Shown in pieces: positions 18,907 to 45,949 of a stretch of 64,000 nt of DNA. The first letter of the stretch is position 1, and each line of letters starts with the position of its first letter. The notes beneath the pieces are model-generated. The model saw nothing but the letters and a program-made list of their open reading frames with translations, did no database searches and had not been told where the DNA came from. Source of the stretch: Edaphobacter sp. (GTDB lineage Bacteria > Acidobacteriota > Terriglobia > Terriglobales > Acidobacteriaceae); the NCBI GenBank assembly GCA_025462645.1, contig JAOAPB010000033.1, forward strand, positions 62,001 to 126,000, read 5' to 3'. A program made the position numbers and the translations under genes.

Positions 18907-19235
18907 GCAATCTCTTACTTTAACATGCCTGAAACCATCGCCTCACCCATGGCGTTCCAGTGCGTCTAACCCTCAGTTTTCTCACCACAGACGATCAACA
19001 TAAGTCACGATGTGACACAGCCGCGAGCCGCCCAGCAAAGCACCCGCGAAGGCCCATAAGAAGTACCCTATTTTGCGAGGTATCTTTGCAGCGAATGGTA
19101 TACTCACCCGAGCGCAACAGCCTGGCAGGCACCGCCCCAACAGGCAGCGTCCTCCCCATCTGCAACACTGGGGCAGGCGTGTACTCCGGCAAACGCCACA
19201 CTCTTCACGCTGTAAAGGACGCAAACGGAAGCAGC
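18907..19235. other. Intergenic leader upstream of the secretin gene
   Basis: The secretin frame is open back to 18960, but the residues encoded before 19236 are compositionally odd, so I treat this stretch as non-coding. It holds an extended -10 promoter candidate at 19096-19104. No other gene is evident between smpB and the secretin. Confidence 0.5.
19096..19104 (+). promoter_or_regulatory. Extended -10 promoter candidate for secretin/pseudopilin operon
   Basis: TGG followed by TATACT at 19099-19104 fits an extended -10 element. A well-spaced -35 is not obvious. Transcription from about 19111 would exclude the upstream in-frame starts at 18960 and 19095 and fits translation from 19236. Confidence 0.4.
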
Positions 19236-21662
19236 ATGGGTCGCGGGAACAATCTAATCAGCACATCATCGACATGCGCCATCCGGGCGCTCGCGCTCCT
19301 CCTCTTCGTCTGCTGCCTCGCAGGCGCGACCTCGGTTGCCGCACACGCGCAGTCAGCCAACACCTGGAACAAACGTGGACAGGACGCTGAGACCCGTCAG
19401 GACTATGACGCCGCCTACGAGGCCTACCGCCAGGCGATCCTGAAAAACCCGAAAGACCTTCGCTTCAAGGCTCACTACGAACGCATGAAGTTCCAGGCCG
19501 CCGTCGGCCACCTCGATCGCGGCCGAGTCCTCAAGCAGAGCGGCGATCTCACCGGCGCTCTGAACGAGTTCACCCGTGCCCTTCAGATCGACCCATCCAA
19601 CCAGGCGGCCCAGCAGGAGATCGACATCCTCTGGGGCCAACAGCCGCCTGGCGCGGCCGGCTCCACTCCACCGCCTCTGCCGCCATCCGGGCGGGACGAC
19701 ACCCTCAAGAACATCGGCTCCATCTCCGGCCCCGTCGAACTTAAACCCGTCTCCAACGACCCCATCACGCTCCACATGGTCGAAGATGTCAAGAACATCT
19801 ATCAGGCGATTGGCAAGGCAGCCGGACTCAACGTCCTCTTCGATCCTGACTACACCTCCAAGCGCATCCCTGTCGACCTCACCAATGTCACCCTCTTCGA
19901 CGCCCTTCACATCGTCGGTACCATCTCGGGGACCTTCTATAAGCCTGTAACATCCAACACCATCTTCGTCGCCCAGAACACCCGCACCAAGCGCACCGAT
20001 CTCGACTCGCAGGCCGTTCAGACCTTCTATCTCACCAACGCCAGCCAGCAGGCCGACGCCAACGAGATCCAGACCGCCCTTCGCAGCCTCCTCGACCCCA
20101 GCATCAAGATCAATCTCGTCCCCAGCCAGAACGCCATCGTCATGCGAGCCTCGCCGGACCAGCTTCTCCTCGCGCAGAAGCTCCTCAACGATCTCGATCG
20201 CGCCAAGCCCGAGGTGGTTGTCGATGTCGCCATCCTCGAGGTCAACCGCGACAAAGTGCGCAATATCGGCATCACCCTGCCACAGTCCGTTACCCTCACA
20301 CCTCAGGCGTCGCCGACCACTACGACCACCGGCTCCACCTCTACCACCGGTACCACGACCACCCCCTCTAACTTCACGCTCAACACCCTCGCCAACCTCA
20401 ACGCACAGAACTTCGCGGTTAGCATCACCGGGGGCACCCTCAACGCGCTGCTCACCGACAACGACACGCGCATCCTCCAGAATCCCCGCATCCGCGCTAC
20501 CGACGGACAGCGCGCGGACCTCAAGATCGGCTCGAGGATTCCCGTAGCCACCGGCTCCTATAACGCCGGAGTCTCTACCGGCGTAGGCAGCATCGGAGTC
20601 CAGACGCAGTTCCAGTATCTCGATGTCGGTGTCGAGATCGACATGACGCCCACCGTCCACTTCGACCGGCAGGTCACCCTCAAGCTCAAGATGGTGGTCT
20701 CGTCTCATAGCGGAGATGCGACCATCAGCGGTGTCGTCGAGCCCATCATCTCGCAGCGTACCGTCGAGCAGGTCATCCAGCTTAAGGATGGGGAACCCAG
20801 CATCCTCGCCGGAATCCTCACCAAGCAGGACATCAAAGGCATCAGCGGAACCCCTGGCCTCGGCGAGCTCCCCTTGCTCAAATACTTCTTCTCCTCCCAG
20901 TCCAAGGAGACCCAGCAGAACGAGATCGTCTTCCTGCTCATCCCTCACATCGTGCGTGAGTCTGTCCTCTCTCGCCTGAACACCCGCGCCATCGACACCG
21001 GCACCGGTCAGTCGGTCGAGCTCCACCGCGATACCGCGCAGCAGACCGATCTCGACAACTCCAGTCTCATTCACGCTGCTCCTCGCCCCACCGGCCCTGC
21101 CACCACGGCAGCCAATGCGGCGAACGCAATGGTGCAGCAGCTCAAGCAGCAGGCTCTGCCGCCCACCCAGCCCGATCCTGGTGTATTGCCCAGCGAGCCT
21201 GCCGTGCTCGGTCCAACTCAGGCACAGCCGCAAGCCGCTCCCGCCGGACCTCCGGTCAGCCTCACGGTTGTTCCAGCAAATGCCAATCAGACAGTCGGCA
21301 GTACCTTCCAGGTTGCTGTCATGCTCAATAACGCGCGCGACGTCTACTCCGTGCCGCTCCAGCTCCAGTTCAATCCGGCCGTCCTCCAACTCGTCAACGT
21401 CGACGCCGGGGATCTGCTCAGCCGCGACGGTCAGGCAGTCGCCATCGTCCACCGTGACGAAGGAAACGGCCTCGTCACCATCTCCACCTCCCGCCCACCC
21501 AACGTTGCCGGGGTCAATGGGCAGGGAAGCGTGGCCACTCTCACCTTCAAGGCCACTGCTGCCGGCGACTCCAATCTGGCCCTCGTCAAGGTTGGCGCTC
21601 GCAATAGTGTCCAGGCCAATCTTCCGGCCGTCGGTTCGCAGGCCGTGGTGCATGTGAAGTGA
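19236..21662 (+). CDS. Secretin (GspD/PilQ-like) with N-terminal TPRs and C-terminal cohesin domain
   Basis: Predicted outer-membrane secretin of a type II secretion or type IV pilus-like machine. From ATG 19236 the 808-residue chain starts with a signal peptide (hydrophobic LALLLFVCCLAGATSVA, cleavage near AHA-QS). It continues with TPR-like repeats (about 40-120), an STN/N0-type domain (about 165-235) and a NolW/N1-like domain. The secretin core contains LKIGSRIPVATG and, later, GILTKQDIKGISGTPGLGELP and EIVFLLIPHIV. After a Pro/Gln/Ala linker the last 125 residues form a cohesin-like beta domain (VPLQLQFNPAVLQLVNVDAGDLL). The GTG of the next gene overlaps its stop codon. Confidence 0.88.
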   Translation: MGRGNNLISTSSTCAIRALALLLFVCCLAGATSVAAHAQSANTWNKRGQDAETRQDYDAAYEAYRQAILKNPKDLRFKAHYERMKFQAAVGHLDRGRVLKQSGDLTGALNEFTRALQIDPSNQAAQQEIDILWGQQPPGAAGSTPPPLPPSGRDDTLKNIGSISGPVELKPVSNDPITLHMVEDVKNIYQAIGKAAGLNVLFDPDYTSKRIPVDLTNVTLFDALHIVGTISGTFYKPVTSNTIFVAQNTRTKRTDLDSQAVQTFYLTNASQQADANEIQTALRSLLDPSIKINLVPSQNAIVMRASPDQLLLAQKLLNDLDRAKPEVVVDVAILEVNRDKVRNIGITLPQSVTLTPQASPTTTTTGSTSTTGTTTTPSNFTLNTLANLNAQNFAVSITGGTLNALLTDNDTRILQNPRIRATDGQRADLKIGSRIPVATGSYNAGVSTGVGSIGVQTQFQYLDVGVEIDMTPTVHFDRQVTLKLKMVVSSHSGDATISGVVEPIISQRTVEQVIQLKDGEPSILAGILTKQDIKGISGTPGLGELPLLKYFFSSQSKETQQNEIVFLLIPHIVRESVLSRLNTRAIDTGTGQSVELHRDTAQQTDLDNSSLIHAAPRPTGPATTAANAANAMVQQLKQQALPPTQPDPGVLPSEPAVLGPTQAQPQAAPAGPPVSLTVVPANANQTVGSTFQVAVMLNNARDVYSVPLQLQFNPAVLQLVNVDAGDLLSRDGQAVAIVHRDEGNGLVTISTSRPPNVAGVNGQGSVATLTFKATAAGDSNLALVKVGARNSVQANLPAVGSQAVVHVK

Positions 21663-31629: not shown

Positions 31630-33158
31630 CTAAAAAGACACCTCATAAAATAAAGGTGTGACATTCACTCGATCGGTAAATCGCTTCCACTCGGTGGTTG
31701 TCACCCGGTCTGGCTTGAGTTTGCTGAGATCGGCTGATTTTTTTGCGATATCGTCGATCCGGAGTATCCGTCCGTCAGTCTTGTCTTTCAGCCTGTCAAC
31801 AAGGTCGGGCAGCGGCATGCGTCCCCACCGTTTAATTATGGCCATGGCATGGTCCACAGGAATCATGGCGATCAGATCGTTGTGAACCATTAGTTCCAGG
31901 CCCTTCTCCTTCAGGGTTGCATTATGGCTCCCGTGGTGACCGACCTTATAGAAGATGGTACGGGCCAGAAGGTCCGGGCCTGTAACCGTTGACCTCCTGC
32001 CGGAATTTGTATCGTCTATCTTCCACTTCAAGTCTTGCCAGCTTAGCCAATTGCCCGCCTGGGCATCTCCGGGAAAGAGAAGTACCTCACCGGATGCCAC
32101 TATCTCAATGGCGAGGACGAGACTTGTGTTGTTTGTCGCTGAATCGAGCTGAAGTGCCAGAGTTTCCGACGCGTCCATCCATGTAGCATCGATTCTTCGC
32201 CAGGACTGATCGCGAATATCCTTTTTCGAATCCTCATCGACGATGCTGCCATCCGCGGATTCTCCGAAATAGTGTTTCTCGAAGAAAGGAACGTGCGCGG
32301 CGCGCTCCAATGGGATAGTGAACCGATCTTCGAAGGGCTCCTCAATCAGATCCTCGTTCTCGGGAACGTCTTCGAGGTTCATCGAACGTTGTCCTCGGGT
32401 GAGGGAAGTGACTAAAAGGGACTGTATCCCACCTGATCCCGCATCGAGACCATATCCTTCACCTTTCCCAGGGGCAGACTTCTTAATTAGCTTTTCATCT
32501 TTGGTGGTCCCAGCACCCAAAAGCGGAAGCCGGGAAGTTGTGGGAGAACGATGGGAGGTTCGCCAGGTTGGCAGTAGCGGGGGCGACTTCCAGAGAGGTT
32601 TTTGGCATAGTTCATCGCATCTGAAGTTGAACCTGCCTTCGCTCCCATAAAGTCTATGAGACTATTGATGCGCTGGGCCTTAGCAACATTACCGCTGAGA
32701 GCCAGATGGTTGACCGCCATTCTAAGAGCGTTCTCGGCCCTACGCCGTTCCGTTCGTAGTTTGGTCGCGAGTTGGTCCTTCGGATCTTCCGTCCAGGCTA
32801 CCCAAACATCATTGACCGTTACTTTGTCGAATAAATTCTTGGCTTGGTTGAAACCGGAGACATGATCCATGTGCTCATGCGTGATTACCAGCAGATCGAT
32901 TTGGTTGTTCGTCTGGAGGATGATGTCATTGACAACATCGTTCATTCGTTTTTGAGCATCGGAGGTGCCGACAATGACCCCACAATCGATTAGCATATGG
33001 AACCGCTTGTCCTTCTCCGTGGGCAGGGTAATCAGGAAACAGTCACCGAGTCCCTGACGATACATGCGGACGCTTACTCCAGCACGATCAGGGGTCTTTA
33101 CATTGCGAGATTCTCGGGTTGGGGCTGTCTTTGCGGTTGCTTTTTTGCGTGCCATCAT
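31630..33158 (-). CDS. ComEC/Rec2-like metallo-beta-lactamase-fold protein, interrupted by a 1-nt frameshift
   Basis: The N-terminal frame (33158 down to 32487) holds GLGDCFLITLP, the metal motif HxHxDH as THEHMDH at residues 93-99, and ends in FRFWVLGPPKMKS. The C-terminal frame (32520 to 31630) resumes as KDEKLIKKSAPGKGEGYGLD and carries LLFPGDAQAGNW and KVGHHGSHNATLKEKG, the later ligands typical of ComEC-like MBL hydrolases. Adding one A to the AAA at 32502-32500 (minus strand) joins them into one protein of about 509 residues. There is no signal peptide. It starts 12 nt after the fusion protease stop, so they form an operon. Either the sequence has an indel error or the gene is disrupted. 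Confidence 0.78.
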
Positions 33159-33170
33159 GGATCGCTCCGG

Positions 33171-36100
33171 TTAGAGGCTGCGGTGAAGCATGGCAAATGG
33201 TTCACGATCGGCGTTTGGATCGAAGTACGGCTGACCGTTGTCGGCCATGCTTCGCATGAAACTGCGTTCAGCTTCGATCCGGCCTTCGTTGTTCACCCTT
33301 TTTCTTATGGCATAACGAATGCGTTCGTTCTGGAGATCGATCAGCAAGGTGCATCCGCCGCGATGAGTGGTTTGTTCTCCGGTCTCCACGTCCGTTACGA
33401 CGATTCGTTGGACTGCCTCAATCACCAGATCCGTTAGCTCTTGTCCTCGGCTGCCAATGCGTCGAGCAGGTCGGACAGAATGGATCTGCGCGATCGGATC
33501 ACCGTCGTCGGAGGCAGGGATTCCCTGCGGCACATCGTCATCTTTTTTGAGATAGACCCCGAGATCGGCGCCGAGCAGCTTCGCTTCCTCCTGGGTCAAG
33601 TGGTGTTTGAGCCAGATCCATAGCTTGGCCCCGTTAGACCTTGAAACTTGATAAGCTCTTTTGCGATCAGCTGTTAGATTCCAAGAGAGATCGAGCGAAC
33701 CAATCATCTGATGGAACTGCTTTGGGTTGAAGTTGAATGTTGGTGGTTGCCAGCGAAGGTTCTCCTCAGACAGATTGCGCACGCCACTCGGAAAGATTCC
33801 GCGGGCGCGAAAGCCGGAGATGAAAGCGGTCCGGGAGTTGATGCCATCGAAGGGTTCGACATCGAGATCGGCGGTGATAAGGGCGCGGAGAAAATCGCCG
33901 AACGTAAGATCGACAGGTGGGCAGTAGTCGAGAGCTCGAATACATGTTGTCAGTACGTGCGAAGCAGTAAGAGAGGCTTCATCGGCTAACCGGTTTGTCA
34001 GATCGACTGAGATATCGCCCGGTGGGAGAACTCCTGTGCCGCCAGTGGCAAGGCGCTTCAGATCGGAGGTCCGCGCCTCATACATCTCAAGGAAAGCCTG
34101 GAAGACCGCAGCAAGTAAAACAGCTCCGCGATCATAGGCTTCCGTGGCTGAGGCATAATCATTCGGTGTGGGTGTCGTTCCTAACGCACTTCTTAAAGCC
34201 CTCGAACCGCTCGATGCTTGACCAAATTGTTGCGCTAAATCGGCGAGCAGATTGTTATTCCTAAGATCGCCTCGCGTCCTGGCAATGGTGTGTTTCAGTG
34301 CTGCCGGAATGGTGAAGTGCTGAAAAAGAGCGACCATATCGGCGAAGGCTTCATGAAACGCTGCTACATCAAGATTCGTCTGGTATTGATAATAGCGATG
34401 GACCCCGTCGAGAAGCGCATGAGTTGTCTCGTGTGCGACGACATCATGCGACAGACAGTTGAAGATGAGTCCGCCGGGAAGGTTATCGCCGGCGTTGTCG
34501 GTATTGGCCTGGAAGTACCCGAACAGAAGAGACTTCTTTGGGGGACTGTAATAGGCGTTTGCTTCTCTCAGCGCATGGGGGTAGATCCTTAGTCGTTGGA
34601 CATAGGAGTGTTGAAATTGACCATCTACACTCCTTGAGAGTTGGGGAGCCCAGAGGGCTCTTCGTCCAAGGGCTTGCTCGAAGCGCCCGATCGTTGTCAT
34701 CGCGACCGCATAGACCATCTGTTGATGAAACTGCGGTACACCTTCCGACGGGTCGAGTCCGTCCGATGCAAGGATGCTGGGATGATTGAGGTCAATGGGC
34801 GCATAGGCGACGTTCGATGAAGGGTCAACGTCGATGACCTCCAGATATTCCCCGATCGGTCCGGGCTCCAGGGTCGTCTCCCATGGAACTTCCAGCGTCG
34901 TTTGGTTAAGGGATTCTGTATCCAAACGAAGTCCGAGAACGGGATCGAAGGCGAAGACACGCAACTGTCGAACAAGAGGGGTTGGAATGATCGGTGTTTC
35001 ACCGTGTACTGTCGTAGTAGATGAGGCAGTTGGCGCCATCGGGCGCCGTGAGCGAATTTTGGTGCTGAGCACATCTCTAAGCGCCTTCGAGGTGGTCGAG
35101 TGGTCGAGCAGGGCTTCGACCAATTGCGCCCGGAATGCATCGGATACATCAGGCCCAGGATTGTCAGGATCGACACCGGCCTCTGCAAGCATGTTTTGAA
35201 TCTCCCCGTTCCGCGAGAAGATTTGAGCAGCTTCAAGGTGAAGCATCTGCTGACTGATCGTCGGCTTTGCCGCTCCGAAGATGACTCCGAGAACCGGATC
35301 CAATATCGGAATCCCGATGGAATCCTGGGGAAGCCGAGTCAACGCTGCGCTTTGAGCGCAGGCTTGATCCATCGCGAGATGAGCTCGTAGTGCCCCTCGA
35401 CCAAAGTGTTCCCGATTCGAATTGTCGGCGGTGTCGAATAAAGCTTTGCGAACAGCTTCGACTCGCATCCATGCTTCCGGGAGCTTCTGCAAATCCGTAC
35501 TGTGGGCCTGGATCCAGCAGGCGGCCGCGGATGCAATTTGTGGAGTCGCTGCAGATGTTCCAGCGCCGTCAAAGTCGATGTTTCCCGTACACGCGTACCT
35601 TGCCCATGCTGTGTTCGGAGTGTAGGCAGCCAGTGCGGTATCCATCTTGCTGTCCGGTCCATACGATCCACCCATCTTGCGCGGATCACCAAAATCCGCG
35701 TAAGGCTTACCGTCGGACATGACTCCGCATGCGGCGATTACACGCCGAAAGCGCGCCGGATAGACGATGAAACGAGGAACGCGGAACTTGAACGGTCCGT
35801 AGTTGTTGCCTGCTGCGGTCACGAGCGTGATTCCCGCCGCATAGGCTTCATTGACCATATCGGCCCAGACTTGGGAAGGAACGCCCCCCATACTCATGGA
35901 GAGCACATCCACCTTGTTGCTGATGGCGTACTCCAGACCTCTAGCAATCGAACTGTTGGTAAATAGGACGACAGAGTTAGCGACTCGAACAGGGATTACC
36001 CTCGCAAATGGCGCACCACCGACGAGGTCTTTCGGACTTCCGAAAGGAGAGCCATCAAAGAGGCCTCCGGCGAGAATGCTCAGTGTACCCGTGCCATGCC

Positions 36101-36734
36101 CCGGGTTGTTGGGAAATCCATCGTTGTATGGATCACTGGCATCATTTGGATCGGGATCACCTTCTACGAAGGAACGTTGGAAGCCATAATCGAGATGTGG
36201 TGGGAGTACTGAGTGACCTTTGCGGTATCCCGTGTCCAAGTGGGCAATCGTAATAGGATACTTGGGCTGCCCGACGGAGGAGCGGGCATTCGCCAAGCCA
36301 GAATGACTAGAGTCCTGAAACCATCGCCAGTCGAATGGATTGGGGGACGGAAATCCCTTGTTCGGTGGATCCGGTTTGTCGCAAGAGTCTTTTGCTGAGG
36401 TCGCGCGATAGCTCTTCGCGGCGGCAGTATCCATTGTCTCGTATGTCCACTGTTGCTCAATGTCAGGCTCTGCAAATTCGACTGCTGGAGCGCCGGCAAA
36501 CCCGAATCCTCCGGAGACTAACTTGTGGCATACATCCCAGGCATCGGTCTCCTGTGCTGTTTCCGGCACTGTCGCGATGTGCCACTCTGAAGTCTTCCCC
36601 ATCCTGAGGGAGGCGGCTCGATGCCGATCAGAAAAGAGTGGCTCTAAGCGAAAGGGCAGTTTTTCAATCGTAAAGCCCGTGCCCGGTGTTACAGGCTTGG
36701 CCTTCACGAGAAGACGCGGCGTTCTTGTAACCAT
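33171..36734 (-). CDS. Fusion of subtilisin (S8) protease and thermolysin-like zinc protease, apparently cytosolic
   Basis: A 1187-residue protein with two complete protease sites. An N-terminal region (1 to about 150) may be a prodomain or sensor. The subtilisin domain has Asp167 (AHLDTGY), His213 (GHGTGTLS), oxyanion Asn310 (AAGNN) and Ser394 (GAGTSAATP). A helical linker (about 420-570) follows. A gluzincin domain has HETTH at 768-772 and the third ligand Glu795 in FHEAFADMVALF. The last 190 residues contain no motif I recognise. No signal peptide or membrane segment is visible. AAGGAGAT stands nine bases before ATG 36734. The downstream MBL gene is 12 nt away. The fusion is unusual; the substrate and role are unknown, and an intracellular defence or regulated-proteolysis role is inference. 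Confidence 0.85.
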   Translation of the reverse strand: MVTRTPRLLVKAKPVTPGTGFTIEKLPFRLEPLFSDRHRAASLRMGKTSEWHIATVPETAQETDAWDVCHKLVSGGFGFAGAPAVEFAEPDIEQQWTYETMDTAAAKSYRATSAKDSCDKPDPPNKGFPSPNPFDWRWFQDSSHSGLANARSSVGQPKYPITIAHLDTGYRKGHSVLPPHLDYGFQRSFVEGDPDPNDASDPYNDGFPNNPGHGTGTLSILAGGLFDGSPFGSPKDLVGGAPFARVIPVRVANSVVLFTNSSIARGLEYAISNKVDVLSMSMGGVPSQVWADMVNEAYAAGITLVTAAGNNYGPFKFRVPRFIVYPARFRRVIAACGVMSDGKPYADFGDPRKMGGSYGPDSKMDTALAAYTPNTAWARYACTGNIDFDGAGTSAATPQIASAAACWIQAHSTDLQKLPEAWMRVEAVRKALFDTADNSNREHFGRGALRAHLAMDQACAQSAALTRLPQDSIGIPILDPVLGVIFGAAKPTISQQMLHLEAAQIFSRNGEIQNMLAEAGVDPDNPGPDVSDAFRAQLVEALLDHSTTSKALRDVLSTKIRSRRPMAPTASSTTTVHGETPIIPTPLVRQLRVFAFDPVLGLRLDTESLNQTTLEVPWETTLEPGPIGEYLEVIDVDPSSNVAYAPIDLNHPSILASDGLDPSEGVPQFHQQMVYAVAMTTIGRFEQALGRRALWAPQLSRSVDGQFQHSYVQRLRIYPHALREANAYYSPPKKSLLFGYFQANTDNAGDNLPGGLIFNCLSHDVVAHETTHALLDGVHRYYQYQTNLDVAAFHEAFADMVALFQHFTIPAALKHTIARTRGDLRNNNLLADLAQQFGQASSGSRALRSALGTTPTPNDYASATEAYDRGAVLLAAVFQAFLEMYEARTSDLKRLATGGTGVLPPGDISVDLTNRLADEASLTASHVLTTCIRALDYCPPVDLTFGDFLRALITADLDVEPFDGINSRTAFISGFRARGIFPSGVRNLSEENLRWQPPTFNFNPKQFHQMIGSLDLSWNLTADRKRAYQVSRSNGAKLWIWLKHHLTQEEAKLLGADLGVYLKKDDDVPQGIPASDDGDPIAQIHSVRPARRIGSRGQELTDLVIEAVQRIVVTDVETGEQTTHRGGCTLLIDLQNERIRYAIRKRVNNEGRIEAERSFMRSMADNGQPYFDPNADREPFAMLHRSL

Positions 36735-43919: not shown

Positions 43920-45949
43920 CTACCGGCGTTGAAACTCTGGAGACCCAAATAGTAACCCTGCCGCCAGGGCCGATTCGCTATAAAGGCTGACGAGATCGGG
44001 GTCTCTCCAGCCTCGTCCTTTGAGCGCCAAGGGATCGCGTCTGCGGTCTTTTATGGCTACCTGACGGAGGTTCGCCTTCTGCTGATCCGGGTCGGCGCTG
44101 ATCTGGGTGAGAATCGTCTGACGGGTCCGGTCACTAACAGCTAAATGAAGCAACTTGTCTTCAAGAAGCACGGTCTTATCGGTTGGGGTCAAGGCTTCGG
44201 AGTGATCGCCAAGCAGCAGTGACCAGTTTGTTGTGACGCCCGCCACCCGGTTCGAGGATAACGCCAAAGCGAAGTTCATCCGCTCGATCAAGGTGGCCGT
44301 GTTGTTCCACGGATCTGCCTTCATGGAGTAGCCATTGGGCGTCTGCATACCGTAGAGGGGCATTCCCAGCTCGGCAACTACGTTGACCAGAGCTCCCGTA
44401 CTGTCTACCTCTGCGCCTGAGGCGCGTACCGCTGAGACGACAAAGTCCTGTGGTGTCTTAAGTTTGGATCGGTAGGTATCGTGAGACCAGAACTCGGGGG
44501 AGTCGATCATTGCGCGCAGGACTTTGCGGATGTCCCCGTCCGAGGTGAGGAAGGTCTTCGCCATACGGTCGATCATAGTGGGCGGAGGCGTATCGGAGAC
44601 GAACCGTACGGCTAGTTTCGTGGAGATGAACCGCGCGGTTCTCGGATTGGCAGCGAGTAGATGAAGCACCTGCAGCCCCTCTTTTTCTCCATTCTCTTTA
44701 ATGGTAACGCCCATAACCAGCTTGGATCCGGGTTCGTGCTTCGAATCGTCGAACGTTGCTTGGGCTGCCTGTGTGCTAGACCGGTTTGGTCCAACGGTCC
44801 AGCCGGTGAAGACCTTGGCTACCTCGGTGATGTCGCGCTGCGTGTAACCGCCATTGACCCCAATGGTGTGAAGCTCCATCAGCTCGCGAGCGTAGTTTTC
44901 ATTCAATCCATTAGGACGCTTCTTCTGATTGAACCTACGTACCGGGCGAGTGGCAAAGAAAGACAGAGGGCCGACGCTTCAAGATAGTTGAGCATAGCGG
45001 GGCTGCCAGCCGTGGCCACGAGCAGGTCCTCGAATCGTCCAAGGGCATGTGGCCGAATGACATCTCGTTCATAACTGGCAATATAATAAGGAGCTTGCTG
45101 CGATTTCCCCATGTATACATTGAAGTGGTTAAGCCAGAAGTCAACCATTACTTCATTGACCTGTCGTTCGGTATAAATATCGCGCAGGAGTTTAGTCTGA
45201 ACATCCTCAGCTGCCACGACACCCTGCGGGCTGTTGAAGGCTGCAATGGCCTCAAGCTGTCGAGGGGTAAAGCCCTCGGTTAGATGAGCGCGCTGCTTTG
45301 GGGTGAGAGACCATCGGAACTGGTGCAGCTGTGATAATTTCATGCGGCATAGGGCAGAGAAGCGATCATCAGGAGATAAGGCAAGGATGCCGTCCACCTC
45401 TTCCAGGGAGAGAGGGGCCATATCATTGTCGGAAGCATCTTGCTGCTGCTTGCCTTCCTTCTTGTTTTCCTGGCGCGCTGTCTGATTGGAGTAAATGGCT
45501 CTTTCGGCCTCATCGCTGGGAATGTCCCCTCGACCGTTCATTGTTGCGCGGATCATACCTTTTGTGGGATACAGATCCATCAGCCGCTGGAAAGGGAGCT
45601 GCATGGCGGGATAATCAGCCAGACGGGATTCCAGAGCGCTGTCATCGATCCGCATGGGGTTCATCTGTTGGTTGAACCAAGCGTTGAGCCCCAAGGCTCG
45701 AACCCGTTCGAGATCGCCTGGACGAGGGCCATAGGTAAGGCGATCGAGGGCCTGCAATATCTTTTCGTCGCTAGTAAGGGGCCTGTTGGACTGAGACTTC
45801 ATCTTAGTTCGAGCAATGGGCGAACCGTTGGATCTCTGGTCACTCATTTGGGCCAGCGTCTCCGCGGGAAGGGCCAACTGCAAAGTGAGAAGGCATACTA
45901 AGGCGCAACGTGAAGCAAAGAACAGCTGGATGAAGAGGGAACTGGCCAC
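43920..45949 (-). CDS. Exported DUF1800 protein, interrupted by a frameshift
   Basis: The N-terminal frame (45949 to 44903) has a GTG start after AAGGAG, a signal peptide, a LDRLTYGPRPGDLERV motif, DFWLNHFNVYMGKS and AGSPAMLNYLEAS, then drifts into unrelated residues and stops. The other frame resumes at about 44980 with SVGPLSFFATRPV and reaches GLNENYARELMELHTIG, YTQRDITEVAKVFTGWT and the normal C-terminus LLFGSPEFQRR at 43920. One nucleotide is missing between about 44980 and 44910. DUF1800 proteins are exported, of unknown function, and usually paired with DUF1501 genes, which are absent here. It is a pseudogene or carries an assembly indel. Confidence 0.8.

Follow-up and report, generated by a model that had tools for sequence, protein, structure and literature searches.

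What purpose might be served by one protein that joins a subtilisin-type serine protease to a thermolysin-like zinc protease and shows no sign of leaving the cell? We examined this question for a 64,000-nucleotide stretch of Edaphobacter sp. DNA (assembly GCA_025462645.1, contig JAOAPB010000033.1, positions 62,001 to 126,000; the whole stretch is called the window below), in which a gene at 33171-36734 encodes an 1187-amino-acid (aa) chain with a peptidase S8 half and an M4-like zinc-protease half of the gluzincin type. A preliminary description had presented the chain as a cytosolic serine-plus-zinc double protease. Such double proteases proved real and recurrent, yet the unit to be explained is a protease-nuclease operon: the description overlooked a gene of the metallo-β-lactamase (MBL) fold that starts 12 bp downstream, and the break in its frame. 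Judged from the sequences of its relatives, what constantly accompanies the MBL protein is the gluzincin and not the two proteases together, and the S8 unit has been repeatedly gained or lost. By analogy with published systems, the protease-nuclease pair of intact relatives is likely a protease-triggered anti-virus self-destruct switch. All coordinates of the two genes refer to the minus strand.

The recurrence of the pair was assessed in 80 of 299 confirmed genome loci plus the window locus (81 loci; gene starts in the relatives are automatic calls). Of the 81 loci, 63 have an MBL gene behind the protease, 47 with S8 fusions and 16 with the gluzincin alone, and a single MBL frame lies directly behind the protease in 59 of 62 relatives. 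The MBL family is the largest among the neighbours (63 loci); the next reaches 8, and no second conserved neighbour of the protease was found beyond that number. Plasmid loci agree (16 of 20 listed records were fetched, out of 68 matching records in all): MBL is present in 16 of 16, five with S8 fused and 11 without, with two exceptions in arrangement, an MBL gene about 1.3 kb away in one and split in the other. At gluzincin-only loci no separate upstream S8 gene was found in 16 of 17, the remaining locus (L039) being a split frame; L076 and L082, which both start at the very edge of a contig, were left unjudged in this respect. A quick tree, many of whose forks have weak support, calls for at least eight changes of S8 (L039, L076, L082, L094 and the tandem gluzincin rows left out of the count) and for two of MBL presence.

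The MBL protein of the relatives has the features of a nuclease with insertions. Its model shows a predicted ComEC-like nuclease fold, and six metal-site positions are conserved in 43 of 43 relatives. The motif spacings exceed those of ComEC at two places, and Avs1a-like proteins are longer at the same two; these comparators fall below the Avs1a cut-off, and the profile alignment covers the first 101 columns only. The second insertion is a predicted disordered loop, with pLDDT mostly under 50. Three residues are invariant in 43 of 43 MBL proteins (numbered as in the L016 protein), F165 in the first insertion and F270 and Y291 in the second, and they are identical with and without S8. In the window the gene is divided between two overlapping open reading frames (ORFs), an N-terminal piece at 32487-33158 (HEHMDH at 32862-32879; Pfam Lactamase_B, 6e-7; PADLOC LmuA, 1.9e-14) and a C-terminal piece in another frame at 31630-32520 (HHGS at 31927-31938), so that its motifs are split over two broken frames.

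The zinc half extends over residues ~588-1000 (33735-34973) and is followed by a C-terminal domain in the model, residues ~1004-1165 (33240-33725). The HETTH motif (residues 768-772, 34419-34433) and the third zinc ligand, E795 (34350-34352), lie where the preliminary description had placed them, and all 65 aligned rows have H768, E769, H772 and E795. HExxH plus a downstream Glu, as in M4, is present in the window protein. An hhalign comparison of the gluzincin profile with 31 M4 peptidases of the window's family and phylum gave 93.3% (P = 2.8e-7, 267 columns), six control profiles giving at most 1%; masking both zinc motifs lowered the score to 0.5%, and the similarity thus rests on the zinc motifs. 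The Pfam M4 cut-off was not reached by the window protein or by 31 of 31 stand-alone gluzincins, while a tandem relative, P0163, does pass it. A Pfam scan of the 31 stand-alone gluzincins returned six scattered single-member matches (including Peptidase_M13 at 0.0074), and the gluzincin profile, searched against PDB sequences, gave three weak, unrelated matches only. Because the masked signal vanishes and Pfam M4 is mostly unreached, we name this half an M4-like gluzincin and do not assign it to M4 itself.

A complete thermolysin-like site had been claimed for this half; the zinc ligands are indeed complete, but completeness of the site as a whole was not confirmed. In the profile alignment, the column aligned with the catalytic His231 of thermolysin holds no His in the gluzincin family. 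A nearby His is found in 64 of 64 aligned relatives, including the 92%-identical P0001, but is replaced by Tyr867 (34134-34136) in the window. In tandem gluzincins a second gluzincin copy occupies the N-terminal place; the first copy spans the motif in seven of these proteins (P0127, P0129, P0130, P0132, P0134, P0142 and P0163), and HExxH is kept only in P0163.

The remaining claims on the chain held up. It is a single ORF on the minus strand, the plus strand there being full of stops, and full-length structure prediction gave a pLDDT of 87.2 and a pTM of 0.57. The S8 domain (residues 135-456, 35367-36332; Pfam S8, E = 5.3e-26) has Asp167, His213, Asn310 and Ser394 as described; in an alignment of 45 S8 fusions, the window protein among them, D167, H213 and N310 are kept in 45/45 and S394 in 44/45. 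Pfam, residues, fold search and alignment agree on an Asp/His/Ser triad with an oxyanion Asn in an S8 fold. A subtilisin-type prodomain is predicted at residues ~4-95 (36450-36725), several unprocessed pro-subtilisins aligning from model residue 2-5, and a disordered linker between the proteases at residues 564-581 (34992-35045; pLDDT under 50). Matches of the full-length model in the fold search were filled by S8, the gluzincin half being searched only as part of the whole chain; a library of viral folds gave proteases or unnamed proteins, mostly S8, as its 13 best matches (E up to 1.1e-3), and no usable match for the zinc half. Chance occurrence of the motifs is ruled out by conservation of the S8 residues in the 45 fusions and of the zinc residues in the 65 rows.

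Two similarity searches supplied protein relatives (best 120 matches listed for each), and both motifs in a chain of at least 1130 aa were found in 114 of 237 relatives among the matches listed. The absence of a signal peptide or membrane segment was borne out by a simple hydropathy scan (19-residue mean, with 1.6 near the N terminus as comparison level): the maximum in the window protein is 1.48, and 0.40 in the first 60 residues. N-terminal values above 1.6 occur in 2 of 80 protease relatives (L020 and L073) and in none of 62 MBL partners. By this measure the family, a widespread one, is apparently cytosolic. A secreted dual protease is unsupported, the window protein having no signal peptide and the two relatives being borderline.

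How might the two genes act together? For the intact pair we give roughly even chances to a switch built on a protease-gated nuclease: the zinc half would open a pro-nuclease, with the subtilisin half acting upstream as trigger. An infection cue would unlock the S8 unit, which would free or activate the gluzincin; the gluzincin would cut the MBL insertions, with F165, F270 and Y291 (L016 numbering) as candidate sites; and the freed nuclease would degrade DNA, leading to cell death or growth stop. We infer the gluzincin to be the cutter because it stays constant while S8 varies. By analogy, the gluzincin and the MBL protein would together make up a gated nuclease module, with the S8 unit as one of several exchangeable upstream partners. 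A protease cascade within one polypeptide stays plausible in view of the modelled subtilisin-type prodomain and disordered linker. The fullest version, a complete one-chain initiator-executioner cascade, is tentative and on the doubtful side: an infection-sensing pro-subtilisin would set free a thermolysin-like executioner, which would in turn unlock a gated DNase, and this DNase would be the first pro-nuclease activated by a zinc protease. If true, the one-chain cascade would parallel, in bacteria and with unrelated enzymes, the death signalling that runs from caspase to nuclease, and would offer a simple two-gene system for dissecting a proteolytic cascade inside a single chain. Protease-gated nucleases would then reach past trypsin-/caspase-like activators to a zinc-protease core, and what acts upstream of this core would vary between a subtilisin fused to it, another, usually motif-less gluzincin copy, and LmuB-like or patatin neighbours.

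Several observations weigh against a gated defence nuclease. The ranges of MBL motif spacing overlap widely, and the model of the first MBL insertion is helical for the most part (pLDDT 72-98) rather than disordered. MBL distances correlate with S8 (0.88) and with the gluzincin (0.87) without favouring the gluzincin (difference = -0.005, confidence interval -0.041 to 0.025), and this co-evolution test did not discriminate between the two as MBL activator. MBL is absent in 18 of 81 loci, of which three (L019, L065 and L090) run off the contig, leaving 15; S8 fusions without MBL are mainly one clade of 16 rows, two of which run off the contig. Another defence gene was present in 7 of 13 annotated plasmid windows and in 3 of 13 same-plasmid controls (P = 0.11; three of the 16 records had no annotation, labels were assigned from the product names SIR2, CBASS, SAVED, DUF1837, ThiF or multiubiquitin, and Shedu, toxin-antitoxin pairs in two control windows were left out of the count, and the H. 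monticola control is the end of the record, not the exact antipode). Finally, Pfam scans of neighbours in the window showed no recognized defence gene. At MBL-less loci no recurrent replacement effector was seen (19 loci, by eye). Two MBL-less S8 fusions outside the clade of 16, L047 (4359-8864) and L072 (1449-5978), have ~330 extra C-terminal residues, an extension that by eye resembles glycerophosphodiester phosphodiesterase.

The window's own copy may be impaired. Its sequence suggests that it may not work, because the MBL frame is broken and Tyr867 replaces His. That it is an inactive remnant, whatever the role of the family, is compatible with the other readings, and we place its probability just short of even. 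A genus-mate (G033; L002, L009 and L013) likewise has its related protease-MBL locus in several frames, which looks decayed or badly assembled. Against a remnant, the 1187-aa protease frame is intact, and assembly indels are possible since a second gene in the window, for DUF1800, is split over two ORFs (43920-44906 and 44903-45949, minus strand; profile positions 155-419 and 2-146). The assembly also consists of 136 contigs with 5.29% contamination.

Among the alternatives for the family, a gated nuclease opened by S8, alone or with S8 and the gluzincin each cutting one insertion while the gluzincin mainly binds or regulates, seems unlikely. The S8 residues are conserved in nearly all fusions and the MBL distances track S8 as well as the gluzincin, as this alternative would have it, but S8-less gluzincin-MBL pairs are common (16 of 63 MBL loci, 11 of 16 plasmid loci) and carry the same invariant loop residues.

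We regard as similarly improbable that the pair serves housekeeping, development or peptide processing instead of defence. The defence enrichment is not significant, the window copy sits among ordinary genes and a clade without MBL exists; against this stand a patchy distribution (20 of 297 genomes from the phylum, counting that of the window), carriage on the 68 plasmid records, the resemblance of the MBL protein to LmuA and Avs1a, and specific neighbours. In pRle248a the patatin-gluzincin-MBL run is flanked by a CBASS cyclase (3.1e-148) and by HamA and HamB (7.5e-146 and 0), and the gluzincin-MBL pair of two Hymenobacter plasmids is directly preceded by an LmuB-like SMC gene (2.2e-20 and 3.9e-24). 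Pfam scans of neighbours in the window showed no LmuB or HamA/HamB core gene, but such genes are present beside some relatives. The defence-gene neighbourhood of the plasmid pairs is suggestive only. Loci span at least nine phyla, one archaeon included, and two phage records have partial matches.

That the two proteases are harmful effectors restrained or processed by the MBL protein is very unlikely: S8 fusions without MBL exist, and the protease can therefore act alone, but the MBL metal site is fully conserved, the modelled MBL fold appears nuclease-like, and published pairs (PMC12799240) run the opposite way.

Other observations concern the surroundings of the genes. The LmuB-like genes lie at 5571-7964 in L129 and 3604-5973 in L135, a possible Lamassu variant. 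A patatin-like gene is found ~10 bp before the stand-alone gluzincin-MBL pair in rhizobial/agrobacterial plasmids (L130, 6857-7999; L139, 4858-5991; L140, 4815-5957). Elsewhere in the window, 18960-21662 (plus strand) encodes a 900-aa protein in which TPR repeats are joined to a secretin and, at the C terminus, to a cohesin domain.

The preliminary description did not recognize the architecture, and no description of the fusion or of the gluzincin-MBL pair was found in the open-access literature, preprints not covered. Tk-subtilisin and subtilisin E are single secreted proteases. These pro-subtilisins share the fold and prodomain plan of the S8 half, whereas the window protein has no signal peptide and is fused to a zinc protease. 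The gluzincin half has HExxH plus Glu and similar surroundings in common with thermolysin family M4, but falls below the Pfam cut-off and has no His in the aligned His231 column. Lamassu LmuA, an MBL protein, is matched in PADLOC by 43 of 43 MBL relatives, and two Hymenobacter loci also have the LmuB-like gene upstream; the window pair, however, has no adjoining LmuB, and the LmuA match is mainly on the N-terminal MBL core.

In Kaur et al. (2020; PMC7159879), multi-peptidase NucA systems are described in which trypsin, S8 and other peptidases are proposed as a nuclease-deploying cascade. The several peptidases and the cascade idea are comparable to the fusion here, but those systems have a trypsin core, NucA (HNH) and often secreted or membrane parts, in contrast to a gluzincin core and an MBL nuclease. 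The closest published parallel is with the pairs of Tuck et al. (2025; PMC12799240), who showed two-insertion MBL nucleases to be proenzymes opened by trypsin-/caspase-like partners in Hachiman, AVAST and canu. Nuclease homologues there also adjoin proteases of further, diverse families, but the main text mentions no subtilisin and no metalloprotease. Unlike those partners, the protease here is an M4-like gluzincin, often S8-fused, and the first MBL insertion is predicted to be mostly helical. HamM with protease-HamA, Avs1a with Avs1b and CanC with CanA nevertheless each set a ComEC-like two-insertion MBL beside a protease, as here, and in canu the nuclease gene lies downstream of the protease gene, in the same order as in our locus.
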